Part shown: positions 5,077 to 50,318 of the stretch, one piece after another
How positions within the stretch are numbered: position 1 is the first letter of the stretch
Layout of the letters: every line of letters starts with the position of its first letter
From: Beroe forskalii
Lineage: Eukaryota; Ctenophora; Nuda; Beroida; Beroidae
Assembly: GCA_011033025.1 (NCBI GenBank)
Contig: WFMF01000021.1
Span: 496,001 to 560,000, forward strand
Direction: 5' to 3'
Length of the DNA: 64,000 nt
Made by a program: the position numbers and the translations under genes
Notes under the pieces: generated by a model
Told to the model about the DNA's origin: nothing
What the model saw: the letters and a program-made list of their open reading frames with translations, nothing else
The model's database searches: none

Positions 5077-6415
5077 CCTGAACTATGGTGGCCGAGGTGG
5101 CTCACTTGGGGAAAATTTTTTGAATTCAATTTTTAGGTCCAAATTGATTTAAAAGTGAGCCACGTCGGCCAAACCATGGCCGACGAGGCTCATTTCGGGT
5201 GCTTTGACCACGTTGTCGCGCATTCAGTGATTGGTGTGCGCGGCGCGCGCGCGGCTCAAATTTGAAAAAAATTTGCAATTAGAATATTTTGCAATGAAAA
5301 TTACACGAATGTCTTGGAAAAATTTTGTTATTATCAAATAATACAATTTTTAGTGCTATTCTTGTCTTGGTTTTTGTTTCTGAAAAAATCTGATGAAAAA
5401 TCATCAGCACAAAATATTTTTTGATGATGTGTTGTTGAAATTATGAAAATAAAATATATTTACAATCTGTGTTATGTTGTAGATTATTCTTTGTAGATTG
5501 TTATTGACTTTGTCTCTGGAGAACTACCTTGTTTCTTCAAAGCAGCAACCTGTTAATATTGAGGATTGAGTACTGATTAAGTTTGTTGGTTGTTGGCAAA
5601 TATTGCATTGCCAAATATGGATTACTCATATTACTATTTTATCATTTCTGATACACTTCTATAATAATAAGATTGATGACAAAACTTAATTGGATCAGTT
5701 CTAATCTCTTTTATGATTGGTAAGGCAACAAATTGATATGACCATGTTTTAAAAGCTAACTATGTCACACAGAGTACAGACTAAGAACATGCAAGGTCCA
5801 AATAATAAAATGCTTGCAAAAGGTACCTAACCTATTAACTTAATGCCCCCTACCACAATGGAGTGTGTTTGTTTCATGAGCTGCAGTGTCATAAGTAGGT
5901 CCTTCTGCATTATTGGGAATTCTTTATCTTTATTGGGAAACTTCATCTCCAGAGGGGGGCGGTCGCCTAGTACTGTGACATGGCGCAGCCAGTCTCAGTC
6001 AGACCGTCTCGTGCAAGCCCCTGTCGTAGCAGATGATCGAGAGTCCCTGCGGGCTCCCCAACATCGATCTTTGGTAGGTAGACTTGGTATGGGAGTTGGC
6101 TCCCCGTACCCAGTGGGGTCCCTCTGCGGCGGGACTGCTGCTGATGTCCCATGGCAGCCGGAATGCCGCAGATACAGCCTAGTCCATAGCCAACATAGCA
6201 CCAAGGGTGCACCAGAGTCCAGATCTGGACTCTGGCCAGACAACCTTGCCATAGCGGCAATAGTCCCGAGTGGACAACTTCCATATTCCATAACCCCTTG
6301 CCATTGCGGCAAAACGGATTGATACCCATCTGATCCACTTAAAAACACAAAATTCCCAAAAGACATCAACTCGCCACATCAAATTGCCACACCAACTCAA
6401 AGGTCACACATCAAC

Positions 6416-7010
6416 TCAAGGGTTCTGAAGCCCCATAGCGGGATACCAGTCCCACCCTTACCAAGGGTTCTGAAGCCCCAAGCGGGATACCAGTCCCTCC
6501 CTTACCAAGGATCTGAAGCCCCAAGTGGGATACCAATTACCAGTCCTTCCCTTACCAAGGATCTGAAGCCCCAAGGGGGATACCAGCCCCACCCTTACCA
6601 AGGGTTCTGAATCCCCCAAGTGGGATACCAATTACCAGTCCTTCCCTTATCAAGGATCTGAAGCCCCAAGCGGGATACCAGTCCTTCCCTTATCAAGGAT
6701 CTGAAGCCCCAAGCGGGATAGCAGTCATTCCCTTACCAAGGATCTGAAGCCCCTAGTGGGATACCAATTACCAGTCCTTCCCTTACCAAGGATCTGAAGC
6801 CCCAAGTGGGATACCAATTACCAGTCCTTCCCTTACCAAGGATCTGAAGCCCCAAGCGGGATACCAGTCCTTCCCTTATCAAGGATCTGAAGCCCCAAGC
6901 AGGATACAAGTCCATCTCTTATCAAGGGTTCTGAAGCCCCACAGCAGGATACCAGTCCCTCCCTAACCAAGAGTTCTGAAGCCCCACAGCGGGATACCAG
7001 TCCCTTAGTC
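6416..7010 (+). repeat. Minisatellite, 43-54-bp unit
   Basis: Roughly thirteen copies of a unit built from AAGGATCTGAAGCCCCAAG, CGGGATACCAGTCC and TTCCCTTACC. Some units carry an extra AATTACCAGTCC, giving two unit lengths. The minus-strand open frames across it are by-products. Confidence 0.9.
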
Positions 7011-7800
7011 TGACTCTAGCCTCAGTTAAGATGCTTAAAATCCTGAAACTTTTTCGGGTATATGCTAACAATCTTGACACTTGTCCCACGTTTTTTTTCT
7101 CTTCAAATACACTCTGTTCTGCTTTCTGAAGCAAATACCAGGCATCGTACGGATATTGCATCATTAAATAAACTTTCTAAAACATATCTAACAATTATTT
7201 GAGTACCTAAGACTGGCTTGGAACCTTCATAAATGCCAAAATACAAGCATAAACGTGTGGAAACCTGACCCTAACAACCTATCAACAATGTCAATTCATC
7301 ATCAAAATATACTTATAACAACTTAATGACTGTCCTGGTTAACTCTGGCCTCAGTTAATATGCTTATGCAATCTTGACACTTTTAGCGTATTTGCTTACA
7401 ATCTTGACACATTTTAAAATACACGTGGTTCCACTTTCTGAGGCGATTACCACACGTCGTACGGATACTGTATGATTTGATATACCTCCTAGAACATTAT
7501 ATAGCAACATTTGAGTACCTATGACTTACTTGGAACCGTCAGAAACTCCCAATTTGTGGCATAAACTTGTTTATCAATTCAATGTCTCTATACTCTATAT
7601 TTATATTATCATCATCATGAATTTAACCCAGATCTAAATCTGGCCTCAGGTTATATGCCTACAACCCTCACTCTGTTTCGCGTATATGAGTATACTATTG
7701 ACATTTTTACACGTAGAAATAGGACCAAGCAGTCATTCACTAAAGATTTTACCTCCCTATAGTCATATTATAGTGTCAGGACATTATGATCCCCCCATCC
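7011..7800 (+). repeat. Tandem repeat of about 310 bp, 2.3 diverged copies
   Basis: Units start near 7015, 7334 and 7637 with CTGGCCTCAGTTA variants. Each contains CAATCTTGACAC, CGTACGGATA and TTTGAGTACCTA in order; the third unit is cut short. Confidence 0.7.
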
Positions 7801-9560
7801 TGCCATGATGTAGTCATGATGACCGTCATGATGTCATTATGGCCGTCCCATGGGGACATATCATTCTGTTCTCACTAAGTTTCTCAGCAGGCACCACAAA
7901 ACTCTGGATTAGATAGCAACCCACCTATCAAGAGATAACTGACATAACAATCAGCTGACCCCAAATCAACAAGTCCCATCCCAGCTCAACAGAGTCGTGC
8001 CACTGAGCGCAGGCGCACATTCATTTTCTAAACTAAATAACACCACACGAAGCAGGAAGGAGACGCCCCTGCCGTAGAAAACCAACTCTTCTGTAATAAC
8101 AAGAAATGCGCCTGCAGGCTTATTTCTTGTGCCCGTTGTTCCCGTATGCAGGCGCTTAATTTCCTGTTCCCTGGAGCTGGTATTAAAACACGCTGTCATT
8201 TGATCGACAATCGTTGTCCGACTTATTTACTGAAATGATGAGTTGACGATAAAGCATAAAAGTGACCATCCAAATCATGATACAATCGCGCTTCTTCTAT
8301 CAATTAGTGTCACATCGCAATACTAACATCATTGAATCAATTTTATAAATCTTCGTTGTTATGCGGGTGCTATATATTTTCCTCTCCTAAAAGTTTGAAT
8401 TGACGCGCGCAGATAAAAATATCACGTGGGCGATTTCGTTCCACGTGCCAAATTGCCAAATGTTCGCGCGTTCCCGCCATTTCGTAGAACTCTTTGAAGA
8501 TTCGTTTAGTTGCGCGCCGTTCAGAGTTTCATAACTACGATCACCGTTTTACTTACGCGTTACATTTTCTTATGTGTTGCGTTGCAGATATCAAACTGAT
8601 GCAATGTTCTTTATCGTTTTACCCCGTCTTAATTGTTTTTCAAGATTGAGATACTGTACACAATATAATATTTACTGAACAAGATTAAGATAAAAGATTC
8701 AGATATATCATTATTATCAATATTGGACCGAGACCGAGACAAACTCTCATGTCTTTCTTTCCTCTCGTCAATTCTTTAGATCATTGATAACTGATTGCAC
8801 TAATACTGCCCATTGTAAATTGCCCGAATTGTCTGCTACTTAAAGAAAGCCAAATGAGTATGTGATTGAAATCCAATCAATTATTTGATTGATTCCGTGA
8901 AAATGATAAAGCTTTGATTTCATTTTTAAGAATTGTTAAATTTTTGAGAGAGAATTAATTTCAACATCAGAATGAATAGAGCAGAGCATTGAACTCAAAT
9001 ATTTACAACGCTGTAATAGCTAGCTGCAACCCACAATGCAAAGGATGCCACTACACCAAGCTACTCTGACGCGAGTGATATTATAAAGGAGCAGTTGGAT
9101 GCTTGAAAGTGTACCACCAACCACCACCACCACCAACGACATACGGTTGCGCGCAGCACCACCTATTTCAGATTTAACAGTACGCGTAAAGGTAGTATAC
9201 ACACAACCCCCAAAATACACGATCTCTGCTAACCTTTTCTCAATGCCTTTTTGTAAAACAAAAACGCGATTGGGAACAGGAAAAAATGAGTACAAACACA
9301 CCAAACTATTACAACATATATACATACTACAAACACAAGTTAAAAGCCGGTACCACCGCTTCTCAACAGAGTAGTGCCATGGAGCGCAGGTGCGGGAACA
9401 TTTTAAAGCACATCACATAAGCAGGAAGGAGAGGCACACACGGCACGTGCGCCGGCATATAACTAACTCCTCCGCAACAAACGGCAGTACGAACATACAA
9501 ACCCAACACACCATACAAATACATTACAATAACAATAAATCTCAAACCAGCACAACTCGC
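7801..9560. other. Unassigned interior of the polyA-tailed insert
   Basis: Two related segments (CAACAGAGT, GAGCGCAGG and AAGCAGGAAGGAGA in order) occur about 1.38 kb apart, near 7985 and 9365. They could be internal duplicates or remnants of two insertions. A (CCA)n-like run is at 9112-9136. No gene recognised. Confidence 0.4.
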
Positions 9561-9852
9561 CATCAGAGCCATAGAAGTCGATGGTTGTAGGTTAAGGCCC
9601 ATGTGGCCACTTACCACAGGGAACAAGGTGGTCAATCTTCGGAGGGGCGCCCCCGACTCAATTGGCATCTGTAAAGATGTCATCATCTGGCATCCCAGGT
9701 AAGGGGTACTAGTCTCTAGTAGTGCACGCCAGGTGGGTTCCAGCAGAGCTCTCTGCTATGGAGAGCTGCCACCTCCCCACGCGTGGCGGGGGAGGTGGTC
9801 AGTGAACATTTCAAAAAAAAAAAAAAAACTTCATCTCGTCAGACAAGATGAG

Positions 9853-10100
9853 GTATCTCTCCCATATAAACGGCTCTGAGTGATGTCACAGATCTAAACG
9901 TCAATTTTTCTGTATCTAAACCTAACCATAACCCTAACCAAAACCCTAACCTTAATCCTAACCCTAACCCTAACAAATCGTGACCCTAATCCTGACCCTA
10001 ACCCTAGTCCTTAAAGCGCTAGGTGCGCTTAATTATATTTTTCTGAGTGACGTTATTGTCATAGATAATGAAGGCTCCCGTTTATATGGGAGACCTACCC
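9853..10100. mobile_element. MITE carrying telomere-like repeats
   Basis: Inverted ends CTCCCATATAAACGG (9859-9873 and, complemented, 10078-10093) within near-duplicate flanks AAGATGAGGTA and AAGATGAAGGTA. The same position in B and D lacks it. Inner arms also pair (TCTGAGTGATGTCA with TGACGTTATTGTC). Confidence 0.75.
9918..10012 (+). repeat. Interstitial telomere-like (CCCTAA)n
   Basis: About a dozen CCCTAA/CCATAA/TCCTAA variants in one orientation, inside a MITE. The TTAGGG type is the common animal telomere repeat. It is degenerate, so not a chromosome end. Confidence 0.85.
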
Positions 10101-11266
10101 AAGATGAAGGTATCAAGTCAATTGTCACTAGAAATAGAGCCCAATCACACTATTGAAGGCAAATTTCAAAAATACAAATGTTTAAATTGATTAGATGGAC
10201 ACCTTAATACTCTTCCTACCAAAATTTAGTGTATAGTTTCATAATAAGTTTCATGTTCATTTGGTATCAAAGTTATCACTTGTCTTATTTAAATCAATTC
10301 AAGTATACAAATATCATCTGGTCAGACAAGGAGGAAGTTTTTGTGACATCTAGATTTGAGCACAATACATAAATCAACAAAAGGTTGGACACAGTACAGG
10401 GAATCTGACAAATTTTCATTGCCATTAGTGGCAATGTTGACAGTTATGGATTAACTAAACTTTCTATAATTGGCAATGAATCACCAGTGTTGACAATGAA
10501 CTGTCATTGTTGACAATGAATTCAATATGATCATCATTGTCAAAAATGGATCTTTAGTAACGAAAATAAACTTTAACTTATAAATCCAAACCCTAAACCC
10601 TAAACAAACCCCACACTTCATTCTGGCTTGTGTTAGAGTCAGGGTATGACTCAGGGTTCACTGATTACTATGACAATTTTTTGCAAAGGCAGCTTTGATT
10701 TTATTGTCAGCAATAGCAATTCATTGAATTGCTATAAGCATTCATTGGTGAAAATGGTGAAAATGAATCTATTGCCAATAAGCATGATATGTAATGGAAG
10801 GCATTGGCAACTCTGAATTGTAAGTTATGGCATTATGGCAATTAATTGTCAGCTGTGAATCTATTTTGGACTATATGGCAACAATGAATTAACAATAAAT
10901 CATCAATAAATTGACACTAAAGCACATTTCGAACTGTTTGAACCATATTTTGATTCTAACAGGGTCAGTTTAAACTGTACTCTGTGTGTCGTTTGTGTGC
11001 ATGGCATAAGTTTGCATGGTTCATAGACATAACGTGACATAATGTGCTTCAAACTGCAAAGCTTAACCCATTATAAGCCAGTTCCTATAATATATACCAT
11101 GACCACTATACCAGAGTAGTTGCTGGCATGTAGTGGGATAAGCCATGTATACAAAAGACACACAAACTGTCTGATCACATGATACCATCTTGATGTCGTG
11201 TCAAATACTTAATGCAACCTTGTGGTATGTCATGACTTAATCAAGTCCTGAAACTCAACCCATACA

Positions 11267-13247
11267 TGTGCATATTTGAAAACCTCTTTTTCGTAACGGA
11301 AGGAATCGATAGCATTTTTCTCTCATAACTTACCTAATTTATACAGTAAAGCTATGAAATTTTGCACACTTTACCTATCCTATGTCACAAAGGTTCAGTT
11401 GAAACATTTGATAGATATCAGGAACACATAAGGAGCTATGTCCATTTAAACATTTCGTAACGGAAGGCGAGATAAATTTCCACTCAAAATTTTTTTCCAC
11501 AAAAATTCAATTTTTATCTCAGAAATTGGTTGGAATTCAAATATTCCAACGGGATAATCAAATTTAACCATTTCACTTTAACATTCAGTTGGGAATAAGC
11601 AAATTTTTGAAAGTAAAAACAATTTTCTTTGACGTTAAAAATTTGTACTATTTTGTAACGGAAGGAATTGGATTTTGTAACGGAGGGAATATCGATTATC
11701 TCCATTTTCCTGCTCCACACAGAGGAATTAACTATTCAGAATGGTTGTTTATCAAAGAGGCTGTCCACCAGGGCACTTTAATTTGTACTGGAGTTCGAAA
11801 ATCGTGAATTATTTGCAATAAAAGTGCCAATTTGCCTTAGAAAAACAAGAGAGAAATTGGTGATTTTTCACTAGTTTAAAATGAATTACACATCAGCTGA
11901 TGATTACTAAGGTAATAATCTTGTTCTGAAATGCAATATTGAATGAAAAACCCTTAACAGATCGGTTTTATCTCAATTTTAATGTTACCCAAATTTTTCA
12001 CTGAAAAATAAATGACGATTTTTGTACTTTTTTGATGGACTTTTAGAACACTGAAGCTTCATCTTGTGTAATTTTGATCATAAAATAGTATTCAAAAGTA
12101 TTATCTACAATTCAATAGCTGTTTCAGTTACCAAAATGAATTTTGGCCGATTTTTGTTCAAAAATGCTAATTTTTCGGCTCTGAATTACACCTATTTTGA
12201 GTCCAAAATGGTTCCTGAAATGACGATTTCAGATCCAGGGTCCATTTAAAACTTTCAAATGGAGCATTGTATCATATACAATGAACTGTTGTGACTTGAG
12301 AAGTAATTTCGGCAAGTTTTAAGAAAACAAACTCAATAATAGACTCCGACATCTTGCGAATCTTCAGAGAAAACTGTGGTCTGCGGCACTTTTTGGCCCA
12401 TAAATTCATTGTTTTTCATCTAATTTCCGTATTTTATGGCTCTAAATTTATCTGCAGATCAAAAGCAATGAAGTTAGCAAGAAAATTCGAAATTATGGCT
12501 AACAGGAGATGGATTATTGGCTTGAAAAAGTATTTTAACTCAAATTGGGACTGAAAAATTTGAAAATTGGCCAAAATTTCAGTCTAATTCGATGCTTTTT
12601 CCAGTGTTTTGGCTTTCTTGTTGGCATTTACATGTTTTGTGGGTAAGGAGTCAGATAGAATTAATTTTAACAAAGTTATGATGATTTTCCCGAAATTCGC
12701 ATCAAAGTATTTCGTAACGGAAGGAGATTTATATCTTTTATACAGGCTGCAATTCATGACCTAGACTGAAATTGAACCTACAGTGATGTACCTAAGACCC
12801 TTCTGAGATAATCCTACGACTCTAAATTGTTTCAAAGTGAATAAAGAGAGCATGAACAAAACTTTTCCATGTGAATTTCGTAACGGAAGGAGGCATTTTC
12901 ACCAAAATTTGGACAAAAATCATGAAAAAAGTACATGGAATTCCCGGACTTTTTCAACTGCATGAGTTAATTAGGACTCTAAGCCGACCAAAAATTATGG
13001 TTTGCCGAATTCAGTTCTTATACAATGGCTGGAAAGTCATTTTGAAAATAGGTACCGGAATTTAATACAGAATGTGTCATTTTCATTCATTTTCAAAATC
13101 CTCCTGAGTTCACATTTTTCAAGATTTCTACACCAAATTTTGGATTTTGGTACTTTGAACTATGGTCAAGATCATGGTAACTTTAAATTTCGTCATAAAA
13201 CTTTTTGAAATTTTGGCACAAGTGGAACCACTTTTCAAATATGCACA
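11267..13247. mobile_element. 2-kb non-coding TIR transposon with internal 14-bp motif
   Basis: Ends are perfect 16-bp inverted repeats TGTGCATATTTGAAAA, and the block is absent from B, C and D at the same site. Flanking CA/CA (or ACAT if the ends are shifted by one base) is the only duplication. TTCGTAACGGAAGG or a close variant occurs six times, at about 11289, 11454, 11651, 11673, 12711 and 12877, all in the same orientation. The rest is AT-rich with no transposase frame. Confidence 0.85.
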
Positions 13248-13775
13248 CATAACATTTGCAGGCATGGATTGCATGCAGAGCATGTGTTATACTGATGTTT
13301 TCGCCTCTGCATCCAGATGTTTTCACCCCTACAACCTTCTATACAATCTACAACTTAGTAAGTACAATTTGAATTGATTTGAATATGGAAGTACCTAAAT
13401 TTTCATTATCATACGCTTTTAACTATCTCTGTCTGTTGAGATGCTGAGATAATAGAAGTCAGATCGAATTAACCTGACTGTAACTTAAAAAAATTTTCAG
13501 TGCAACTAAGGACCTGAGAAGTCCATGAGAAGTCCATGACAAAAGATCGTGATATTAATTGCTATCCTAAAGCAAAATGTCTCCCACAAGACAAGGTTTG
13601 TCCTATGAAATTTGTTTCCTTACATTGATGAACTATGAAGTGTCTATTTACTTTTTGAAGTAACTCATGACATTTACTCCTGACAATCTAGTTATCTAGG
13701 CCAACTGTGTACTGAGCCTCTGTACAACAAATGTCTGGTGATTTTAGGGTGTGCAATAGTCTGTTTATCAGTGTG

Positions 13776-15831: not shown

Positions 15832-18410
15832 CAGTAACCCAGCGAACACTGTGTATGGTGGCCGAGGTGGCTCACTTGAAAATAATTTTTCATGTTTTTG
15901 AAAAAGTGAGCCATTTCGGCCACCGCGTGGCCGAGCTGGCTCACCTATATTTTTCCAACTTTGATGCAAAATTTAAATGCCAATTTTAATCCGAAAAGAC
16001 AAAATTCGGCATGTATCTGAAACTAGAAAAGTTGCTCTTTCCAACGGTGTAAAGATTAGGACCAACCGACCCAAAATGGCGGAGTTATAGCGCTCCAAAA
16101 AGTGGGACGCCTCGGCCACGCGGTGGCCGAACTGGCTCACTTAGTTTCAGTCTTCAAAGTGAGCCACGCCGGCCACCGCGTGGCCGAACTGGCTCATTTG
16201 AAGAGCAACAAATGCGCGTTTCATACGTACGTGGTATATTAAAACGCTTTCGCGCCGTACATACATCAGTAATTTACAGCTAATATTGTGGCAAATTTTG
16301 ACGCGCATTCACAGATTGACAGAACCGTATAATCTGGAACCAGCACTCAACGAGGAGGGTATCGATCCTCTTCCGAGCCAGACTGCTGCCTTGCTTTCGG
16401 TTGACCACGATTGCATCCCACTCGCCAAACCGTAACCATATCATCCATCCAAACTCATAAAACCACACTTCTCATTAACTTCTGCGTGTCTGGGAAATAT
16501 TACAAATGAAGTGAGCTCATTTCAACCGCCTGTATGTACTCATCAGTCAAAAGCATCCAATGGGTAATAAAATGAGTCAGTTAGGTCCCGAAGCCTTCCA
16601 TGGTGGAAATAACAACGTATCCAAAGAACCCTTTATAGTTTATACCAACGTATTTTCCATGACTTTTCACTGATGAGCACACATAGCCGGAACGTCTGAT
16701 AGTCTATTTTTGCACTTTGCGTGCCCCAAGCAAGGTTGCCCTCTTCGCCTTTATTCAAGATATGCTCCACCGTTATTATAGTAAGCGTGCAAAAACTACC
16801 GAAAAAGTGCGGGTTTAAGCACATTGGAACTACTTGGGAAAAGGCCAGGAAATTTGACCAAAGAAGTGCACCTAATTATGTGGATGGATATTAAGGGTAG
16901 AAATATGAGTAAAGGCGCAAAAGGGGTCACCAAGTTAGAAGTTGATACTTAAACTTCTGTGTCTATTGATCAACATTTGGAGCACGCATCGCACATGAAC
17001 AAGCTTGAGAGTAGAATTGAGTAAGTCTCATCAAACAAATTGAACAAAGAGAAACACGGTTATGGCTGTAATTTTCGAATATCAGGTTGATGTTTACAAC
17101 AAACTACAATTAGTAGGTAATAATAAAATGTCTCTGAGCGACATGAGATACTTAAGTATCTAGAAAGTTCAGCTTTAGAATGAACAATATTATTGACTAA
17201 TTTGGAAGATTATACAATACTGTTATAAGCACATAAGTCGGCATAAGTTCAAGAAAATTCTAAATCATTCCCTTGTCACAGTTGCTATCTCTAATATAAT
17301 GTTAACAAAAAATAGCAATATCAAACTTTAAACTTTGAAAGAAATATTGAACTTAGAAATAAATTTTCTTTCAAAATTAAGCTGCAACGATAGGATAGTA
17401 TGAAATGTCAATATATAAGCACACCAAAGCTAAATCTTAAGCTTAAGAAACGCAATTTTCGCCACTTAACTGCTTATACAGTAGCCTCACGACAATAATT
17501 TCAAGTTAGTAATTTCTAGTTACGTTCGGCTACCATGGTACTGCCTCTCTTTGCACTCTAATCAAAATGCGCTGTTGGCACATAAAAAGTGGAGAGATAC
17601 ACTAAGCAGTTAGCCAGGCCATGCATTATAACGTAATATTAAATGGCTAATTAATAAACGATATAATTGAAGAAGACAAACGATAAATGGCTAAAGTATA
17701 ATTTAACCATTTAAAAATAAATTTAAACCAAAATTTGACTTTTTTGACAAATGATAAAAAATGTATTCTCTGACGTTAAATACACTGTAAAAGTATTAAA
17801 TGCATTATAACGTAATATTAAATGGCTAAATTCTTAATAATAAATTTCTAATATTTGACTTGAAGACAAATGATAAATTCCTGAACTATACTGTAAAAGT
17901 ATAAAACTTTATGTTGAACCATTTACTTTTATTAAGTCTGACTAATTTTACATAATTTGTCATGCAGTTAAATTCGCGCTACGACTTATCTATTGCCAAG
18001 CAAATAGATGAAATAGCAATGTATCCACTGTTCATACTCCTATCAGAATATCCAGTGAAGCAGTGAGTAGTTCATTCATCTGAAGGACAAAGCTACCAAG
18101 GTACACTCCAAAATCATTTGCGTAGAACTAGAAAGCGTAGAATAGTCATGACTCATGAGTCACCGATTGCACCATCACGGAAATCTGAGGAAGGGAAATT
18201 AGAAATGTTATAATACCAATCATTTGAACGGGCATATTTCATTAAATCTAAGCACAATCTGAGCACATGATAAGCATATTGATTTAATGTATTACATAAC
18301 AGTAGGTATTTAGGTAACTTTATTGCCTTTCTGGTTCGGAGGTATAAAAATGCGAATCAATATACTAGAGCTCTTGATCTTCATTGAACATTACAAATTT
18401 GTGCGATTTT

Positions 18411-18757
18411 AAAAATCAATTTACTTTCAATGTTTTGAATTTGAACCTAAATAGTCAAATAATGACATCTATTCTGAATGTGATGACGCGATAAAAAGGT
18501 GCACCAGTTCAACAGAATTTCCTTTATATATCGCCCTTTTCAGGCTTCAGAACTTATTCTCGAGTACAAGATTTCAAGATAATGATTTATTGAATTAATG
18601 TATGCTGAGTCTTTACACTGAACAGTGCAAAGTAATCCTTGTGGATAATGTAAGCGTACCATTCGAATTTAAAGAAGCCTAGATAAACCCGATCGATACA
18701 GGATCGGACGAGTGCGTTGTGTAGTCTGGGAGCCGTTTGGCCGGACACTTCGGGGGT
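18411..18757. other. Copy-B-specific segment
   Basis: About 350 bp present in B but absent at the matching place in C (32.82 kb) and D (47.40 kb), where the flanks join directly. No duplication at the edges, so it is either a deletion in the C/D ancestor or an insertion in B. Its frame on the minus strand has no recognised family. Confidence 0.55.
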
Positions 18758-19058
18758 ACACAGTACAAAATATAATCTGCTCAAAATATAATTTGTCTTC
18801 GTAAATAAATTTTGTTTTCGAATTTGCCAATCAGACCATTATGTAAGTTAAGATAAAATAAGTGGAGTCCAATGTCTTATCTATAGAGGTGTATGGGTAT
18901 ACTACAAACATAACAAAATACTTTGAAATGCAGTAAGGGTGAAGTGCAGTATCAAGCTTAGGCAAATGTAATAAGCTCTGAATTTCATACTTCATATACC
19001 GATTATTGGTCACAAAGATCATGAATGATTCCTTTGTGAATGGCAACATGTGTGAGCA

Positions 19059-19886
19059 CCTTAGTGGTAAAAATTATGATGCGTACTAATAATGATAATT
19101 TTAACAAAATGATCATAATTATTAGGTACGCATCATAAATTCTACACATCATAATATCTACAGGTCATAATTTATGCACTCACAAAAATCAGCTATTTTT
19201 AGATACAGGTACGTTAAGGCAAGGATGATCGATGGTTTATGGTCATTGGTCCATAGTGATAATGTGGACATTTGAGAGTAGGGACAGAGGTGGGTATTGG
19301 GTTAACACTCGACATAGGTCATAGCAGCTGGGGCGTACGCCATATTCTCGAATAATAACGAAAGTTTAAAATTGCCGAACTCCGTGATGAGCAATCTGTA
19401 ATATCATACTATCATTATAGTACTAAAATAGTGAAAATCAGTAAACGACCGAGTTCAGGTTCTTAGCCGAGGCCGAGTTCAGCCGAGTTCATATAACATT
19501 CCTGTAGCTACAATTTTATTTTGCCGTGATTTTCTGTAAGACTATTTTGAAAGAATCTTTTGCCAATTGAACGAGTGAAATTTGATACATTTATTAAGTT
19601 AAATATTAATCCAGTGAAAATTTCAGTTGTTACACCCAAAAATTCAACATAAGTTGTGAAATAACACATGAAATTCTGGCAATTACCTAGGTATCGAACA
19701 CGGCAAAATGAAGCAAAATTTTGCCGAGGCCGAGTTTGAAAAAAGGGCCGATTTTGACCGAAGCCGAGGCCGAGTACTTGGTCGTTTCCTGGTGAAAATC
19801 ACTGAAAATTTCTCGATCATAAAATTAGTACTGATCATAATTTCATTTGTCATAATTAAAACGGCTCTTAATTTCTACCACTAAGG
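19059..19886. mobile_element. CCTTAGTGG-ended TIR element in copy B
   Basis: Ends CCTTAGTGGTARAAATTA are inverted, 18 bp with one mismatch. Inner arms rich in ATTATGATGCGTAC and ATTATGATCA also pair. It contains the hAT-type MITE. Equivalents sit at 31683-32516 and 46269-47095. No clear target duplication, so it may be an integral inverted module of the giant repeat rather than an insertion. Confidence 0.65.
19439..19791. mobile_element. hAT-type MITE in copy B
   Basis: CAGTAAACGACCGAGT end and a diverged opposite end (CAGGAAACGACC) flanked by GTGAAAAT at 19431-19438 and 19792-19799, an 8-bp duplication. Same family as 2445-3485. Confidence 0.9.
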
Positions 19887-20029
19887 TATATAACTAAGAA
19901 TTAGTGCTTATGAGTTTCTGAATAGGCGGGGGATATCAGAGACCTTATGCCCACTTATTCACGTGATGGTCGGGCTCCAAAATTTCAAAATGCAGTTACT
20001 CGCATTATAGACGCCTCCCTCGATATTCT

Positions 20030-20170
20030 GGATTTTCATGCGGGTCTATAATACCCTGATCGGGCCCATATTTGTTTAGAACCTCGCCCCACGGGCTGCG
20101 GGTCAAACCGGATAGATCCCTCGGGGTGCGCCCTCGGGAGCCATCCCAAAATGGGCCCGACCCGCGCGTG
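20030..20170. repeat. GC-rich island inside the giant repeat
   Basis: A GGGCCCGA/CCCGCGCG-rich block with inverted matches (TCGGGCCCAT against ATGGGCCCGA; CCCTCGGG against CCCGAGGG). It recurs at 31385-31510 and 45975-46090. Confidence 0.6.
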
Positions 20171-20629: not shown

Positions 20630-20662
20630 TTCGCCGTTCAGCGACATCTTCAGGTCTGTAAG
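20630..20662 (-). ncRNA. Possible hammerhead-like core motif
   Basis: Reading the minus strand, ACCTGAAGATGTCGCTGAAC then GGCGAAATT gives CUGAAGA, a short hairpin (GUCG/CGGC) and GAAA, resembling the conserved core of hammerhead ribozymes seen in Penelope-like and other retroelements. One extra U sits between CUGAAGA and the hairpin, and stems I and III are not evident, so catalysis is unproven. Relatives: 30916-30950, 44195-44230 (different context), 45486-45515 (damaged). Confidence 0.3.
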
Positions 20663-34945: not shown

Positions 34946-35706
34946 TCTCTAATATAATTTCGCATTCTCTGTTTTTTTGTTTGTCGTAACGGCGGAAACA
35001 TCTTCGGAACGCGCGCGCATTACGATTTGTGCGGGTAACCATGGTGACACGTGCACGGAGAATTGCGCGCGCGCTCATTTCTGTTAATGACGTTTTGATT
35101 ACGTTGCTTCGTAACTTTTGAACGGATAAGAGTTTTTTGATGCGGTAAAAAGTATTCAGCTGATCTGAAATTTGCGAACGAGGTGCTGCGTAGCAGCGCC
35201 GAGTGAGCTGTGTATTAGCAGGCCCAACGGGCATTCTAGTCTCTAATATAATTTCGCAACCTCTGTTGTTTGTGCGTAACGGCGGAAACATCTTCGGAAC
35301 GCGCGCGCATTACGATTTGTGCGGGTAACCATGGTGACACGTGCACGGAGAATTGCGCGCGCGCTCATTTCTGTTAATGGTGTTTTGATTACGTTGCGCG
35401 ATCTCTAATAACTTTTGAACGGATCGGGGGTTTTTGATGCGGTAATTTTTTTTAGTTGATTTGAATTGCATTGTTTGAAATTTGCGAGCTCTGAGTGCAG
35501 AGCTGTGTATTAGCTGGCCAATTAATAAATTAATAACGGACCTGCTATTACACAGCTCACTCAGATTGTAACTTTGATCTGATTGGAATTTTGATGCGGT
35601 AAAAGTATTTAGTTGATTTGAATTGCATAGGTCGAAATTTGCGAACGAGGTGCTGCGTAGCAGCGCCGAGTGAGCTGTGTATTTGCAGGCCCAACGGGCC
35701 TGCTAG
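34946..35706 (+). mobile_element. Tandem pair of non-autonomous Helitrons
   Basis: Two head-to-tail units, 34946-35239 and 35240-35706. Each starts TCTCTAATATAATTTCGC (5' TC) and ends CTAG (CTRR). The second ends with a perfect hairpin GCAGGCCC-AAC-GGGCCTGC right at the terminus; the first has a decayed version. The pair sits between A (34945) and T (35707) with no target duplication, and copy D has the uninterrupted site GGTATAAAC. All of this is the Helitron signature. No Rep/helicase is encoded. The related element at 52068-52521 has a similar start and the same 3' end. Confidence 0.92.
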
Positions 35707-36497
35707 TAAACTATAAAGGGTTCTTTGGATACGTTGTTATTTCCACCATGGAAGGCTTCGGGACCTAACTGACTCATTTTATTACCCATTGGATGCTTTT
35801 GACTGATGAGTACATACAGGCGGTTGAAATGAGCTCACTTCATTTGTAATATTTCCCATACACCCTGAAGTTAATGAGAAGTGTGGTTTTATGAGTTTGG
35901 ATGGATGATATGGTTAGGGTTTGGTGAGAGTGAGATGAAATCGTGGTCAACCGAAAGCAAGGCAGCAGTCCGGCTCGGAAGAGGATCGATACCCTCCTCG
36001 TTGAGTGCTGGTTCCAGATTATACGGTTGCCAATCTGTGAATGCGCGTCAAAATTTTGCCACAATATTAGCTGTAAAATTACTGATGTATGTACGGCGCG
36101 AAAGCGTTTTAATATACCACGTACGTATGAAACGCGCATTTGTTGCTCTTCAATGAGCCAGCCAGTTCGGCCACGCGGTGGCCGGCGTGGCTCACTTTGA
36201 AGACTGAAACTACAGAGCCAGTTCGGCCACCGCGTGCCGAGGCGTCCCAATTTTGGAGCGCTATAACTCCTCCATTTTGGTTCGGTTGGTCCTAATCTTT
36301 ACACCGTTGGAAAGAGCAACTTTTCTAGTTTCAGATACATGCCGAATTTTGTCTTTTCGGATTAAAATTGGCATCTCAATTTTGCATCAAAGTTGGAAAA
36401 ATATAGGTGAGCCATCTCGGCCACGCGGTGGCCGAAATGGCTCACTTTTTCAAAAACATGAAAAATTATTTTCAAGTGAGCCACCTCGGCCACCATA

Positions 36498-39797: not shown

Positions 39798-41141
39798 GGG
39801 CGTCTGGCTCACTTGGGAAAAATTTTTTGAATTCAATTTTTAGGTCCAAATTGTTTTAAAAGTGAGCCACGTCGGCCAAACCATGGCCGACGAGGCTCAT
39901 TTCGGGTACCTTGACCACGTTTTCGCGCATTCAGTGATCGGTGTGCGCGGCGCGCGCGCGGCTCAAATTTGAATAATTTTTGCAATTAGAATATTTTGCA
40001 ATAAAATTACACGAATGTCTTGGAAAAATTTTGTTATTATCAAATAATACAATTTTTGTGCTATTCTTGTCTTGGTTTTGTTTCGAAAAATCTGATTAAA
40101 AATCATCAGCACAAAATATTTTTGATGATGTGCTGTTGAAATTATGAAAATAACATATATTTACAATCTGTGCTATGTTGTAGATTCTTCTTTGTAGATT
40201 GTTATTGACTTTGTCTCTGGAGAACTACTTTGTTTCTTCAAAGCAGCAACCTGTTTATTGAGGATTGAGTACTGATTAAGTTTGTTGGTTGTTGGCAAAT
40301 ATTGCATTGCCAAATATTGCATTGCCAAATATTGCATTACTCATATTACTATTTATTCATTTCTGATACACTTCTAAAATAATAAGATTGATGACAAAAC
40401 TTTATTCCTTCAGTTCTAATCTCTATCCTTAGGTCTTGATGGGATGCCTCCATCATAGCCTTGGTAGTTTGAAACAGGGCAAAATACTTTAATGATTGGT
40501 GAGGCAACAAATTGATATGACCATGTTTTAAAAAGCTAACTATGTCACACACAGAGTACAGACTAAGAACATGCAAGGTCCAAATAATAAAATGCTTGCA
40601 AAAGGTACCTAACCTATTAACTTAATGCCCCCTACCACAATGGAGTGTGTTTGTTTCATGAGCTTCAGTGTCATAAGTTGGTCCTTGTGCATTATTGGGA
40701 ATTCTTTATCTTTATTGGGAAACTTTATCCGGTCAGACAAGATCAAAGTATCAAGTCAATTGTCACTAGAAATAGAGCCCAATCACACTTTGGGCAAATT
40801 TCAAAATGCAAATGTTTAGATTAGATGGACACCTTAATACTCTTACCACAGTTTAGTGTATAGTTTCATAATAAGTTTCGTGTTCATTTGGTATCAAAGT
40901 ATCTGTCTTATTTAAAACAATTCAAGTAAATAAATATCATTTGGTCAGACAAGGAGGAAGTTTTCATGACATCTAGATTTGAGCAAAATACATCAATCAA
41001 CAAAAAGGTTTACTAGGAAAATGACATTTAAATCCCCATTTGTGGCAATATTGACAGTTATGGATTAACTAAACTTTCTAATTGTCAATGAATCACCAGT
41101 GTTGACAATGAACCATCATTATTGACAATGAATTCAATATG

Positions 41142-41885
41142 TTTGAATTAATCAAAATTTTTCAAACACAATGAACCCTCACTTTTCTGTTTAACTGCCA
41201 TACTTGGAACACCAACATGAGTTTTTTGGGTTAATGCAATGTAGGACAAAGGATCTTTTTAATGATCAACAATGGAAATGGTGTTCAGGTTTGATTCAAT
41301 CCAATACCTATTTCAGAGGAAAATGAATTAAATTGCAAGTCTTTTGTGAGGTATGATGCCCCCATCAAGTACCCCCTGGTACCTATTCAATCTGGCTTGA
41401 TCCAAATGCATAATCACAAATGCCTGAATGAATCTGAAACTTTTTCCCTATGGTCTTTGTTTTATGCCATTTGCACCAAGAAATTAAGTTCAACACACTA
41501 ATGAAGAGAAAAGAGGACCGGTGGATGGATCCGGGTCATTTGTGTTTTTGACACAATGCACAATTAATAAAATTAATGCGAGTGGCATGCATCCTGATCC
41601 AATTCTTCATCTTAGTGAGATGCTTCTCCTTGAAAATCATTTGTTTTGAAATAATGTTTGAATTAAAAACCAATCTTTCTTTAAACATCAATGGTCAGCA
41701 AGAATTTTTCTCCAACTCATACTTGAACACCAACATGATTCCTTTAGGTAACAATGTGGACCATGGTTAGTTAGATCTTAATGAGTCACACCAAAGATTA
41801 GTGGTGTTCAGACAAGGAGGCATCTTCATAGCAATACCTATCCTCAATCACCAGTGTTTAAATTGAAGATGTTTTTTGTGGTAGG
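41142..41885. mobile_element. Unit-spacer-unit insertion in copy D
   Basis: Flanked by GAATTCAATATG at 41130-41141 and 41886-41897. Two related units (41142-41362 and 41657-41885), both starting TTTGAATTAA, surround about 290 bp. The layout resembles a terminal-repeat retrotransposon in miniature, with C holding a solo unit, but TG...CA ends are missing. Confidence 0.6.
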
Positions 41886-44194
41886 GAATTCAATATGATC
41901 GTCATTGTCAAAAATGGATCTTTAGTAACGAAATTGAACTTATAAATCCAAACCCTAAACCCTAAACAAACCCCACACTTCATTCTGGCTTGTGTAAGAG
42001 TCAGGGTATGACTCAGGGTTCACTGATTACTATGACAATTTTTGCAAAGGCAGCTTTGATTTTATTGTCAGCAATAGCAATTCATTGAATTACTATGAGC
42101 ATTCATTGGTGAAAATGGTGAAAATGAATCTATTGCCAATAAGCATGATATGTAATGGAAGGCAGTGGCAACACTGAATTGTAAGTTATGGCATTATGGC
42201 AATTAATTTTCAACTGTGAATCTATTTTGGACTATATGGCAACAATGAATTAACAATAAATCATCAATAAATTGACACTAAAGCACATTTCGAACTGTTT
42301 GAACCATATTTTGATCCTAACAGGGTCAGTTTAAACTGTACTCTGTGTGTCATCGTGTGCATGGTATAAGTTTGCATGGTTCATAGACATAACGTGACAT
42401 AACGTGCTTCAAACTGCAAAGCTTAACCCATTATAAGCCAGGTCCTATAATATATACTAGTACCACTATACCAGAGTAGTTGCTGGCATGTAGTGGGATA
42501 AGCCATGTATAAAAAAGACACACAAACTGTCTTCTCACATGATACCATCTTGATGTTGTGTCAAATACTTAATGCAACCTTGTGGTATGACTTAATCAAG
42601 TCCTGAAACTCAACCTATACAATCAAATTTGAGGCATGGATTGCATGCAGAGCATGTGTTATACTGATGTTTTTGCCTCTGCATCCAGATGTTTTCACCC
42701 CTACAACCTTCTATACAATCTACAACTTAGTAAGTACAATCTGAATTGATTTGAATATGGAAGTACCTAAATTTTCATTATCATATGCTTTTAACTATTC
42801 TGTCTGTTGAGATGCTGAGATAATAGAAGTCAGATCGAATTAACCTGACTGTAATTTTTAAAAATTTTCAGTGCAACTAAGGACCTGAGAAGTCCATGAC
42901 AAAAGATCGTGATATTAATTGCTATCCTAAAGCAAAATGTCTCCCACAAGACAAGATTTGTCCTATGAAATTTCTTTCCTTACATTGATGAACTATGAAG
43001 TGTCTATTTACTTTTTTGAAGTAACTCATGACATTTACTCTTGACAATCTAGTTATCTAGGCCAACTGTGTACTGAGCCTCTGTACAACAAATATGTATG
43101 GTGATTTTAGGGCGTGCAAAAGTCTGTTTTAATCAGTGTGCGTAAAAATACATTAGTATTAGCTAATCGTGACGTGATGCGTCACATCATGCGTCAATTG
43201 TTGTAACTAATCTGTAATAGTGACGTGGTGGCTGGTGCGTCACGTCATCACGATTAGTTGAAACTTTAAAACAAGTAATGCGTCACGTCAAGATTTCGTG
43301 CATTCATTCATTACTTTTAACTGGTTATGTGCGCTCGGGATGGATTATCCGGGTGACTGCGCCTAAAGACGAACCAAGAACTGCAACAGATATCTACCAT
43401 TTTATATTCCTGTACTAACAGTTTTCAGTGATAGGATGTAGCAGGCATGGATCCAAGGGGGCATGCTGGAGGCATGCGCATGCCCCCAAACGAAAATTTG
43501 GAGGCGTGCTCTGGGCGTGCAATTCAAAAAATTTGAAATAAAAATCAACATAAGAATTGAAAATATGGACAAAAAATGAATCATTTTTGAACCATTTTAA
43601 CCGGCCCCTTGGACAAAAATTTTTATGGAGGTTGCCAGATCAAGGATTTTTTGCTCTGAAATGACCACTAAAACCCTTTTTTACTGGATAAATTGCATCA
43701 AAAGACCCAAATCCCGGTCTGATATTATGATTTAGGTCGTTATCGTGTTATATGTAATGACTTTCCAGTGAATTTTGCACTATATAAGCCAATTCATAAA
43801 AGTTTCATTTGACCTAAATTAAACTGGCCTTTAATTTGACCGGCCCCACTTTAACCGGCCTTTTTTTAACCGGCCCTTTGGACAAAAATTTCAAAGTCGT
43901 TTTTGTCCTTAAGGGCCGGTTAAATAAAGGCCAATAAGGTATTCACTTGTATAAGGAAAAATAATACCTACCATGATTCGGTAACTTATCATTGATTTGA
44001 TTACATTGTTACTATTTGTTTGTCAATTTCCAGGCAACGGATCACGCCCGGTCTATTTCAACACAGGATGACTGGACACTGAATATTGCCTTCCAACAGT
44101 CCGAAAATGGACTAGAAAAGTTATGAAAATCGATGATATTATTTGAAAACAAGTTTATGAATGGTACAGGTACAAAACTAAACGATGTGGTTCT

Positions 44195-44230
44195 TTAATG
44201 ACAATCAATTTCGTCGTTCTACGACATCTT
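44195..44230 (-). ncRNA. Possible hammerhead-like core motif, independent context
   Basis: Minus strand reads CTGAAGA T GTCG TAGAA CGAC GAAA. The hairpin is fully Watson-Crick, whereas the giant-repeat copies have GUCG or GUUG with CGGC. Sits in the D-specific block, unrelated sequence around it. Confidence 0.3.
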
Positions 44231-44427
44231 CAGGTCTCAAATTTGATTGTATAACCATTGCATCAAAAGAGAATAAATCAGTTACTCATCAATTGCAATC
44301 ATGCGACTCTTATTCAACGACCCGATCCGTGAAATCAATTCCAAGAAAGCATGAATAATCTTATTTGTCAAGTATCGATAGCATCAATTATCAATAGCAA
44401 CTAGCATTCCTCATGGGTATATAGGTG

Positions 44428-44875
44428 GCAAAATTGTGTACGACAACAATGATGTAGATGCTGACATGAAAACAGTGCAAAAATTCTATTGAGGTGACAT
44501 TTGTTGACGCCCCACACCTCTGGCTTCTGGGGGCTGCCGCCCCCAGACCCCTGCTTTTCTTTCTCTTCATTTTAATTAATATATTTAGTGAAATTGTGTA
44601 CAACAAAAGGGATGGAGCTGTTGAGATGAAAACAATGCAAAAACCCTATTGAGGTGACAATTCTTGACACTCCACACCTCTGGCTTCTGGGGGCTACCGC
44701 CCCCAGGCCATTCGATTCTTTCTTTTTTATTTTTAATATATTTAGTGAAATTATGTACGGCAAAAAAAGATGAAGCTTTTGAGATAAAAACAGTGCAAAG
44801 ATCTTATTGAGGTGACATTTCTTTACACTCCAGACCTCTGGCTTCTGGGGCTGCCGCCCCAGACCCCTACTAGCT
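44428..44875 (-). repeat. Three tandem units of about 160 bp
   Basis: Each unit holds GTGAAATTGTGTAC, GCAAAAAYYCTATTGAGGTG, CACACCTCTGGCTTCTGGGG and GCTGCCGCCCC. Two similar minus-strand frames (with GLGAAAPRSQRCG) come from this duplication and are not independent evidence of a gene. Confidence 0.8.
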
Positions 44876-46268
44876 AATACATACTTGAATTATTTTACAT
44901 TCAGAAAACGTCATTTTGCAAATGGAGCACCACGAGGGCTTAAATTTGCACGCCCCCAAAAATTCTGGGCTGGATCATGCTGGATCCATGTCAATAACTA
45001 TAAGCAATGAATAATTCCCTGTTCTAGATTAGCTACACAATGAGAGAGCCTTTTTAACTTCTGATATATTAGAATAATTACTTTAGCTAATGAAATATTA
45101 AAAAAGAAGCAAATTTTGCAAACTGCTTGCTTTGCTCACAAAATATAGTCAATTTCTTGAGCAGAAGAAGGCAAACGCAAAATGGGCAAAAAGGCAAAGG
45201 GTTCGGGAATTTTTTATTTTTTGGATATGGGGGTAAAATACTACTCACAATTCGACTTTCGAGACACTGGTATAGAAAAATAATGCTAGAAATTATATAT
45301 AGTAAGATGGAATAATAATGCATGGTTATTAAATTTTGTTTAGGTACTTTAGTAGCAGGATTGGTGTAAGGTTTTAGTTCTAATCCGTAACCTTAAGTGA
45401 TTAGAATGTTTTTCCACGTTTCAGCCTATTGATTCATTATTATACGATAGTTTTCAATAGTGTATATGAATTGTTATGCTTACAGACCTGAAGATGTTGC
45501 TGAACATGAAATTAATTCTAAGTGAAGAACGTCATAGTTTATCTTATGCCAGTACAACCTTGTGAAGAGATGATAAATAAATGATTGAACTATGCGACCG
45601 CTATAAAGCGACACAATCCTTGACACATAGTGAGTAAGTGCAGAGACATATATGGTGAAATACTGCATTAAGCCAAACTCCTTGGATACCACCCAGTCTA
45701 TATTGCACAATGCACATAATTAATGCAATAAAGCAATAACACTAACTGATAACACTATCTCAAATTTTAGGACTCATTTTTTGTCGTTGATATTCATTAT
45801 GAGTTCAATAAAAAATATGTTCCACAAGGCTTCAAAATGTATGCTTTTCATGTGCACTTTCTCACAATTTGAGTAAGTGATTTCGCTTCAAATTTTAGAT
45901 TTAATTCTAAGATTTCGCTTCAAATTTTAGATTTAATTTCTAAGAATTTCCTATGATTATCTACAAAATACATAGACACGCGCGGGTCGGGCCCATTTCG
46001 GGATAGCTCCCGAGGGCGCAGCCGGATCTATCAGTTTTGACCCGCAGCCCGTGGTGCGAGGTTCCAAACAAATATGGGCCCGATCAGGCAAATGTCGTAT
46101 GTATTATAGACCCGCATGAAAGTCAAGAATAGCCAGGTAGGCGTCTATAATGCGAGTAACTGCATCTTGAAATTTTGGAGCCCGACCATCACGTGAATAA
46201 GTGGGCATAAGGTCTCTGATATCCCCCGCCTATTCAGAAACTCATAAGCACTAATTCTTAGTTATATA

Positions 46269-47095
46269 CCTTAGTGGTAGAAATTAAGAGCCGTTTTAAT
46301 TATGACAAATGAAATTATGATCAGTACTAAATATTATGATAAAGAAATTTTCAGTGATTTTCACCAGGAAAGACCAAGTACTCGGCCTCTGCTTCGGTCA
46401 AAATCGGCCCTTTTCAAACTCGGCCTTGGCAAAATTTTGCTTCATTTGCCGTGTTCGATACCTAGGTAATTGCCAGAATTTCATGTGTTATTTCACAACT
46501 TATGTTGAATTTTTGGGTGTAACAAACTGAAATTTTCACCGGATTGATATTTAACTTAATAACTTTATCAAATTTCACTAGTTCAATTTTCAAAAGATTC
46601 TTTCAAAATATTCTTACAGAAAATCACGGCAAAAATATAATTGTAGCTACAGGAATGTTATATGAACTCGGCTGAACTCGGCCTCGGCTAAGAACCTGAA
46701 CTCGGTCGTTTACTGATTTTCACTATTTTAGTACTATAATGATAGTATGATATTACAGATTGCTCATCACGGAGTTCGGAAATTTTAAACTTTCGTTATT
46801 ATTCGAGAATATGGCGTACGCCCCAGCTGCTATGACCTATGTCGAGTGTTAACCCAATACCCACCTCTGTCCCTACTCTCGAATGTCCACATTATCACTA
46901 TGGACCAATGACCATAAACCATCGATCATCCTTGCCTTAACGTACCTGTATCTAAAAATAGCTGATTTTTGTGAGTGCATAAATTATGACCTGTAGATAT
47001 TATGATGCGTAGAAAATATGATGCGCACCTAATAATTATGATCATTTTGTTAAAATTATCATTATTAGTACGCATCATAATTTTTACCACTAAGG
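46269..47095. mobile_element. CCTTAGTGG-ended TIR element in copy D
   Basis: As at 31683-32516; 18-bp inverted ends with one mismatch. Confidence 0.65.
46365..46715. mobile_element. hAT-type MITE in copy D
   Basis: ATTTTCAC duplication at 46357-46364 and 46716-46723; same insertion as in B and C. Confidence 0.9.
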
Positions 47096-48009
47096 TGCTC
47101 ACACATGTTGCCATTCACAAAGGAATCATTCATGATCTTTGTGACCAATAATCGGTATATGAAGTATGAAATTCAGAGCTTATTACATTTGCCTAAGCTT
47201 GATACTGCACTTCACCCTTACTGCAAATTTTCAATTTTTTGTTATGTTTGTAGTATACCCATACACCTCTATGGATAAGACATTGGACTCCACTTATTTT
47301 ATGTTAACTTACATAATGGTCTGATTGGCAAATTTGAAAACAAAATTTATTTACGAAGACAAATTATATTTTAAGCAGATTATATTTTGTACTGTGTACC
47401 CTCGATTTTTAAAAATCACAAATTTGTAATGTTCAATGAATATCAAGAGCTCTAGTATATTGATTTGCATTTTATACCTCCGAACCTAAAAGGCAATAAA
47501 GTTACCTAAATACCTACTGTTATGTAATACATTAAATTAATATGCTTATCATGCTCAGATTGTGCTTAGATTTAATGAAATATGCCCGTTCAAATGATTG
47601 GTATTATAACATTTCTAATTTCCCTTCCTCAGATTTCCGTGGTGGTGCAATCGGTGACTCATGAGTCATGACTATTCTACGCTTTCGTGTTCTACGCAAA
47701 TGATTTTGGAGTGTACCTTGGTAGCTTTGTCCTTCAGATGAATGAACTACTCACTGCTTCACTGGATATTCTGATAGGAGTATGAACAGTGGATACATTG
47801 CTATTTCATCTATTTGCTTGGCAATAGATAAGTCGTAGCGCGAATTTAACTTTGCATGACAAATTATGTAAAGTGGACATTGAGTAGTCAGACTTTATAA
47901 AAAGATTATAATTCCAAAAGTAAGTGGTTCAACATAAAGTGTTTATACTTTTACAGTATAGTCCAGGAATTTATCATTTGTCTTCAAGTCAAATATTTGA
48001 AATTTATTA

Positions 48010-48497
48010 CCTTAGGAGACAAATTTAAAAGGTACGAAATTTCGGGATTTTTCGAAAAAATCCCCATATTTTCTACTCCCAAAATTCGGTCCCCAAAATT
48101 ATTTCCCCCAAATTAGTAAATTGCGGGTTTGTGATTTGATTAACAGTGCATAAAATATGGGATTCCCAGACAAATTTCAATGAGTATATCAGTGCAGAAG
48201 AGTTCAAAATATCTAAAATGCAGTAATTCCAAATAGAACATTCTAAACTCGACTCGATAAAAGAGATCTTGTATTGGAAATTCTACTACATCGATCACCT
48301 CAGTGATATTGGCCTTTCTGAAGTTCTGATTTATTCCCAAAAGTTACCTTATTTTTTCGAATTTGAAAAAAGGCGAAAATCCCTACTTTATTTTGGGGTA
48401 CGAAATTTGGGGATTTCTGAGAAAATCCCCATATTTTCGAACCCCCAAAATTTCGATCCCCCGGAATTATTGTCCCATGTTATATTGTCTTGTAAGG
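48010..48497. mobile_element. TATTA-flanked TIR element in copy D
   Basis: Same ends and TATTA duplication as 33430-33921, a few bases shorter through homopolymer differences. Confidence 0.85.
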
Positions 48498-50318
48498 TAT
48501 TAAGAATTAAGAATTATAATGCATGGCCTGGCTAACTGCTTAGTGTATCTCTCCACTTTTTATGTACCTAACGCGCAGAGAATACATTATTTAAAGCCAA
48601 CAGCACATTTTGATTAGAGTGCAAAGAGAGGCAGTACCATGGTAGCCGAACGTACTTAGAAATTACTAACTTGAAATTATCGTCGTGAGGCTACTGTATA
48701 AGCAGTTGAGTGGCGAAAATTGCGTTTCTTAAGCTTAAGATTTAGCTTTGGTGTACTTATATATTGACATTTCATACAATCCTATCTTTACAGCTAAATT
48801 TTGAAAGAAAATTTATTTCTAAGTTCAATATTTCTTTCGAAGTTTAAAGTTTGATATTGCTATTTTTTGTTAACATTATATTAAATAGCAACTGTGACAA
48901 GGGAATGATTTAGAATTTTCTTGAACTTATGCCGACTTATGTGCTTATAACAGCATTGCATAATCTTCCAAATTAGTCTATAATATCGTTCATTCTAAAG
49001 CTAAACTTTCTAGATACTTAAGTATCTCATGCCGCTCAGAGACATTTTATTATTACCTACTAATTGTAGTTTGTTGTAAGCATCAACCTGATATTCGAAA
49101 ATTACAACCATAACTGTGTTTCTTTTTGTTCAATTTGTTTGATGAGACTTAGTTAATTCTACTCTCGAGCTTGTTCATGTGCGATGCGTGCTCCAAATTT
49201 TGATCAATAGACACAGAAGTTTAAGTATCAACTTCTAACTTGGTGACCCCTTTTGCGCCTTTACTAATATTTCTACCCTTAAAATCCATCCACATAATTA
49301 GGTACACTTCCTTGGTCAAATTTCCCGGCCTTTTCCCAAGTAGTTCCAATGTTCTTAAATCTGAACTTTTGTGGTAGTTTTGCACACTTACAATAATAAC
49401 GGTGGAGCATATCTTGAATAAAGGCGAAGAGGGCAACCTTGTTTGGGGCAAGCTAAGTGCAAAAATAGACTCAGTCGTTCCGGCTATGTCTGCTCATCAG
49501 TGAAAAGTCATGGAAAATACGTTGGTATAAACTATAAAGGGTTCTTTGGATACGTTGTTATTTCCACCATGGAAGGCTTCGGGACCTAACTGACTCATTT
49601 TATTACCCATTGGATGCTTTTGACTGATGAGTACATACAGGCGGTTGAAATGAGCTCACTTCATTTGTAATATTTCCCATACACCCTGAAGTTAATGAGA
49701 AGTGTGGTTTTATGAGTTTGGATGGATGATATGGTTAGGGTTTGGTGAGTGAGATGAAATCGTGGTCAACCGAAAGCAAGGCAGCAGTCCGGCTCGGAAG
49801 AGGATCGATACCCTCCTCGTTGAGTGCTGGTTCCAGATTATACGGTTGCCAATCTGTGAATGCGCGTCAAAATTTGCCACAATATTAGCTGTAAATTACT
49901 GATGTATGTACGGCGCGAAAGCGTTTTAATATACCACGTACGTATGAAACGCGCATTTGTTGCTCTTCAAATGAGCCAGTTCGGCCACGCGGTGGCCGGC
50001 GTGGCTCACTTTGAAGACTGAAACTACAAGTGAGCCAGTTCGGCCACCGCGTGGCCGAGGCGTCCCACTTTTTAGACGCTATAACTCCTCCATTTTGGTT
50101 CGGTTGGTCCTAATCTTTTACACCGTTGGAAAGAGCAACTTTTCTAGTTTCAGATACATGCCGAATTTTGTCTTTTCGGATTAAAATTGGCATCTCAATT
50201 TTGCATCAAAGTTGGAAAAATATAGGTGAGCCATCTCGGCCACGCGGTGGCCGAAATGGCTCACTTTTTCAAAAACATGAAAAATTATTTTCAAGTGAGC
50301 CACCTCGGCCACCATAAT

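Follow-up and report, generated by a model that had tools for sequence, protein, structure and literature searches.

A 64,000-nucleotide stretch of the ctenophore Beroe forskalii genome (the window; bases 496001-560000 of contig C259 within a 216-Mb assembly) holds several copies, A to E, of a large repeat that is almost certainly a non-autonomous transposon with terminal inverted repeats (TIRs). The best explanation of the data as a whole, which we give a probability of about 0.6, is a family of ~7.9-kb elements that are moved in trans, by cut and paste, by a DDE transposase of the IS3EU/GingerRoot type. The family is notable for its size and for regular palindromic dyads near its ends; among known DNA transposons that lack genes, many are short. 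An element that retains an 8-kb body devoid of coding signal, while its end dyads are constrained, lends itself to the question of which sequences a transposase has to recognize; it also bears on how much passive cargo such an enzyme can carry, and the dyads are a directly testable set of candidate binding sites.

The copies have exact ends. In the window, the 20-base end TATGGTGGCCGAGGTGGCTC is found without mismatch at 5084(+), 15854(+), 36497(-), and 50316(-), and with one mismatch at 23728(-), while 100 shuffles yielded no match. The genome-wide search with both ends of the complete copy B, proposed in a preliminary description of this DNA, returned 72 exact 20-mers (none for the reversed control), spread over many contigs in both orientations, together with 56 left-end and 48 right-end candidates, of which the best 40 in each set were scored. 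Alignment of the copies, likewise proposed, shows that left and right ends of this family (family 1) share 25 identical bases, TATGGTGGCCGAGGTGGCTCACTTG, which make up the TIR, and diverge beyond; homology between copies stops at the TIR, and the flanking sequence differs from copy to copy, with the exception of a few insertions that share one recurrent target repeat. Of 58 distinct flanks, 55 have G or C as the base adjoining the TIR. The body is ~7.9 kb long, and the longer copies that were read owe their extra length to insertions: C259a, C268, C259b, and C858 carry most of the B body, collinear and between the same two ends, plus the insertions that lengthen them. The earlier view that A-D share a body with inverted ends, and that B has both, is borne out (the right TIR of B has one changed base), with ~7.9 kb in place of the 8-10 kb given for that body. 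Family 1 ends form fifteen pairs, including two right-right pairs, which are 4.7 to 28.4 kb long.

Does the family move, or has a large region merely been duplicated? Among the nine family 1 copies that have both ends, four are flanked by perfect target duplications: GGCAAG (6 bp, C259a), GTTCCTG (7 bp, C268), GTCAGAC (7 bp, C160), and GTGTAGTG (8 bp, C447, where 3 bp is also possible); six pairs with a damaged end (C636, C154, two on C210, C578, and D) were excluded from this count. At any one pair, a 6-8 bp repeat would arise by chance with a probability of 0.0003. The C268 insertion interrupts a repeat, five matches to which span the junction. Two of these are empty sites (L027:6461-6561 and window 8091-8169) with a single GTTCCCG, as compared to two GTTCCTG at the filled site; of the other three, one is missing a base of the 7-mer and two are divergent there. 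Homology that ends at the TIR, the duplications, and the empty site together indicate that the family transposes. The alternative of a segmental repeat raised in the preliminary description, here taken as a duplication (segmental or tandem) of some large region with a palindrome at its start by chance, is therefore very improbable and is rejected for the copies read. It would account for clustering of copies, since contig C259 alone has 7 of the 40 scored left ends against 0.19 expected, a figure inflated by ranking by likeness to B; however, the ends are shared, the flanks are not continuous in homology, and the 20-mers are scattered over the genome.

No coding signal was found in the body. 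Copy B has no frame of 150 aa starting with ATG, GTG, or TTG, and its longest stop-to-stop frame is 109 aa. Across 75 aligned segments of at least 200 bases (mean depth 8.6), the substitution rate relative to B amounts to 3.2% overall, 7.5% at CpG, and 3.0% at other sites. Its 3-base periodicity does not exceed that of shuffles (top chi2 25.8 vs. a shuffle median of 29.1), and 107 of 656 indels have a length divisible by three. These results agree with the initial impression of a giant non-autonomous element devoid of transposase, reverse transcriptase (RT), integrase, polymerase, or Rep. The search for a longer copy with a coding core, also suggested there, found none: of 22 intervals between or beside aligned pieces, few match each other; nine long frames were scanned, of which three (two in L012, one in L028) belong to the long interspersed nuclear element (LINE)/RT type, and a 613-aa frame in L025 matches nothing in Pfam at E 0.1 or among PDB sequences at E 1. 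A coding core in the longer copies was rejected on these grounds. Could the body once have encoded a transposase or cargo and lost its frames? A large body that is collinear between copies is what a former gene-bearing element would leave, yet substitutions relative to B amount to only ~3%, and neither a long frame nor periodicity is left. We consider such decay unlikely; it also overlaps with the explanation preferred here because, at this low divergence, coding capacity would have gone before the family spread, making the family non-autonomous anyway.

Part of the B body (window 19466-19792) is itself a high-copy repeat: a 1.4-kb query spanning it yielded 996 first-look candidates, and, among the best 40 that were scored, many matches are confined to that segment. 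A LINE-like element is nested in copy C259a (L012:2860-4953 and L012:2-2869, both on the minus strand); one of its frames matches 2OG-Fe(II) oxygenase (E 1e-10) and, weakly, PHD-finger and GDSL-lipase, and the neighboring frame matches reverse transcriptase and endonuclease.

A search of B with a 20-bp motif, allowing up to 5 mismatches, detected ten TIR-like sites, seven in the first 346 bp, three in the last 111 bp, and none between; 100 first-order Markov sequences had a mean of 0.02. In all five window copies (A-E), the non-terminal sites form back-to-back pairs (dyads) whose members are offset by 23 bp, with one site in C lacking a counted partner. B has three dyads at the left end and one at the right, in keeping with the one to three palindromes originally noticed behind each end. 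When folded as DNA, three end stretches of B are more stable than shuffles (z -6.6 to -8.1). An RNA origin of the palindromes was rejected, as the window contains no tRNA and no Rfam match at gathering threshold.

The dyads are constrained at both ends, and the TIR clearly so only at the left. At the left ends (30 of the 40 scored loci read, three of them without the first bases), non-CpG variation is 4/643 in the TIR and 30/3024 in the dyads, vs. 138/7087 in the spacers (P 0.013 and 0.0005); 19 loci read at the right ends gave 1/608 in the dyad vs. 39/1189 in the spacers (P 0.000002). All these P values are too low, as the copies share ancestry. Selection for recognition by a transposase would leave such constraint on the dyads, which are the predicted binding sites of the enzyme. 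In the proposed mechanism, a DDE transposase made elsewhere would bind the 25-bp TIR and the subterminal dyads, join the two ends, and cut at TA..TA; the element would then be inserted into a target cut with a 6-8 bp stagger, with G or C nearly always adjoining the TIR. Cut and paste is presumed here in preference to copy and paste.

Which transposase could this be? The answer suggested by the termini draws on a sister family. Family 1 elements have TATGG..CCATA termini and family 2 elements TACGG..CCGTA, both following TAYGG..CCRTA (TA..TA); TAYGGTGGCCGAG ends bound elements of both. The family 2 end TACGGTGGCCGAGCAGGCTCACTT has 126 exact sites (reversed control 0), the first 100 of which, plus another search, were used for pairing and gave at least 23 paired elements of 0.8-22 kb. 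Six-bp duplications (CCTGTC, GCCAGT, CTGCAC, and ACGGAG) are present at 4 of 8 pairs read, and one family 2 end (L039) has two dyads with a 24-bp offset. The two families nest mutually: at C314, family 2 is inserted into the subterminal region of family 1, and the reverse arrangement, with a family 1 end within a family 2 end, also occurs (C450, L048).

These features resemble those of IS3EU, whose rust-fungus families have TAYGG..CCRTA ends and 6-bp duplications (PMC12730594); complete IS3EU families are described, in the available part of a second source, as always having TA..TA termini and usually 6-bp target-site duplications (PMC10045372). Inverted terminal repeats are a further likeness in the accessible text on IS3EU/GingerRoot, as is the existence of non-autonomous families: according to the same portion of the second source, Repbase listed 45 IS3EU families in May 2022, of which 17 were autonomous (PMC10045372). 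Both Beroe forskalii families fit the IS3EU termini; family 2 fits the 6-bp length and family 1 does so in part. Family 1 is thus probably a new non-autonomous DNA transposon family of the IS3EU type, and the odds of the IS3EU assignment taken by itself are somewhat better than even. The earlier statement that no described family has this layout was too strong, since IS3EU ends and 6-bp duplications are in print (PMC12730594), though no transposase has been tied to the family; subterminal dyad arrays such as those of the Beroe forskalii elements go unmentioned in the sections available on IS3EU. No paper was recognized as describing the family itself in a partial literature search without Repbase. 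An instructive comparison is Styx of Zymoseptoria, an IS3EU-related element mostly 7,927 bp long: in the excerpt at hand, it has a similar length, 6-bp duplications, conserved TIRs, single TIRs, and local clustering, which the clustering on C259 resembles, but carries four reading frames, including a transposase, where the Beroe forskalii body shows none (PMC10853768).

Several observations weigh against the assembled explanation. Five of the nine family 1 copies have no duplication, namely B, C858, C259b, and both right-right copies (C832 and C1); in family 2, 3 of 8 pairs lack one, and one more matches at 5 of 6 bases. The family 1 duplications of 6, 7, 7, and 8 bp are not the clean 6 of IS3EU, and its 25-bp TIR is shorter than the >30 bp given, in the accessible text, for TET-carrying rust-fungus IS3EU families, a value not stated there for the whole superfamily (PMC12730594). 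The unclipped right TIR does not differ from the spacers (10/437 vs. 39/1189, P 0.33); all ten changes come from five damaged ends among the 19, where they are limited to the five outermost bases, and the inner 20 positions have none. Finally, no transposase was tied to either family in a search that ignored introns and had no IS3EU positive control. Among the best 150 of 200 rve candidates, just one lies inside any of the 38 TIR pairs examined (C214), with 0.34 expected by chance, and its 1,372-aa frame appears retrotransposon-like by length; none of the best 65 of 209 IS481-model candidates lies inside these pairs.

Two further sets of matches were compared with the same 38 pairs: 46 MULE matches and 8 matches to alpha-kinase, tried as a marker of IS3EU and rejected, were found in the genome, none of them inside a pair. 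Alpha-kinase genes are carried by TET-carrying IS3EU families of rust fungi, as stated in the part of the source available (PMC12730594). Because introns were ignored, a positive control was lacking, a partner of low similarity could escape notice, and the rve and IS481 counts cover the best candidates, these results amount to absence of evidence only. One alpha-kinase frame (G000:C468:7859-8458) lies on the inner side of a lone family 2 end (18792-18815), ~10.3 kb from it, a proximity that may be due to chance. Frames of ~357-391 aa with rve matches were considered as the missing partner and rejected: one, at L095 (G000:C346:58501-59400), is an integrase frame that contains an rve domain, has mostly retroviral integrases among its best PDB sequence matches, and is taken to be Polinton/Maverick-like; several others occur elsewhere, and the sole rve match within a TIR pair differs from them in size.

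If the enzyme is not of the IS3EU type, the same non-autonomous TIR element would be moved by another DDE superfamily (MULE, P/Galileo-like, or hAT) or by an undescribed one, which we regard as possible though on the unlikely side. Duplications of 6-8 bp fit the 4-10 bp given for MuDR/IS256 in the available portion of PMC10045372, and MULE transposases are present in the genome, if outside the TIR pairs. The MULE Muta1 of Aedes aegypti, as far as the accessible text goes, likewise combines a palindromic terminal motif, repeated subterminal sites, and many non-autonomous derivatives, but differs in its 8-9 bp duplications (the length also given for 14 Aedes MULE families), 145-bp TIRs, and sites arranged in tandem rather than back-to-back (PMC5225508). 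Against a change of superfamily, the termini of both families, together with the 6-bp duplications seen in family 2, agree with the published signature of IS3EU. Dada, defined in the part of the source at hand by the lack of a TIR and by insertion into small RNA genes (PMC3706591), was rejected, given the 25-bp TIR and varied flanks. Improbable in our estimate is that both families represent an undescribed lineage whose transposase reads, at both ends, a back-to-back dyad code with a fixed offset of 23-24 bp, tolerates 6-8 bp cuts, and moves gene-less elements of at least 8 kb.

Right-right inverted copies exist on C832 and C1. The C832 arms are 93% alike, which suggests that two right ends may suffice for movement, the alternative being rearrangement after insertion. 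On C1 (G000:C1:1285901-1300200; L009, L010), the outer flanks form an inverted repeat, and 643 bases spanning flank and end align with 92% likeness. Galileo/Foldback elements similarly have repeated terminal units and inverted end-to-end copies, whereas in ordinary Beroe forskalii copies the two ends differ and the TIR is short; the original label "foldback-like" applies in a loose sense.

Copies and end features in the window; copy coordinates were obtained by mapping copy B onto the window.
Feature	Coordinates	Strand	Remarks
Copy B, complete element without coding signal	15854..23728	+	7,875 bp; collinear with copies elsewhere, which fix its ends
Left TIR of B, TATGGTGGCCGAGGTGGCTCACTTG	15854..15878	+	match to the ends of other copies
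Right TIR of B	23704..23728	-	first base C, not T
Left dyad 1 of B	15904..15946	.	back-to-back TIR-like sites, 23-bp offset
Left dyad 2 of B	16100..16142	.	TIR-like site search
Left dyad 3 of B	16157..16199	.	TIR-like site search
Right dyad of B	23618..23660	.	TIR-like site search and conservation
Copy A, reversed, right end only	5084..13775	-	pieces 5084-5948, 10100-11267, and 13247-13775, split by insertions at 5949-10099 and 11268-13246
Copy C, reversed, left end intact, right end lost	28620..36497	-	insertion 34947-35706
Copy D, reversed, left end intact, right end 14 bases short	39805..50316	-	insertion 43409-45231
Copy E, left-end fragment	25386..26790	+	dyad unit twice; no intact terminal TIR; overlooked in the preliminary description

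The recurrent target mentioned above contains a TTGCTAAACACGTATATCCCTG-like sequence, is probably an abundant repeat, and adjoins several insertions in both orientations (D, C259b, C259d, C711, C214, and C421 of family 1; C182 of family 2). A repeat array occupies 23729-24145, directly outside the right end of B, and a related array of ~5 kb (L026, about 0.8-6.1 kb) is inserted within the right end of copy C259d. The insertion in copy D includes a 160-bp tandem repeat (2.8 copies, 44431-44868). The window also contains two likely host genes, the N-terminal part of exocyst Sec3 (52883-54463) and a HAD-type hydrolase (61425-62237).

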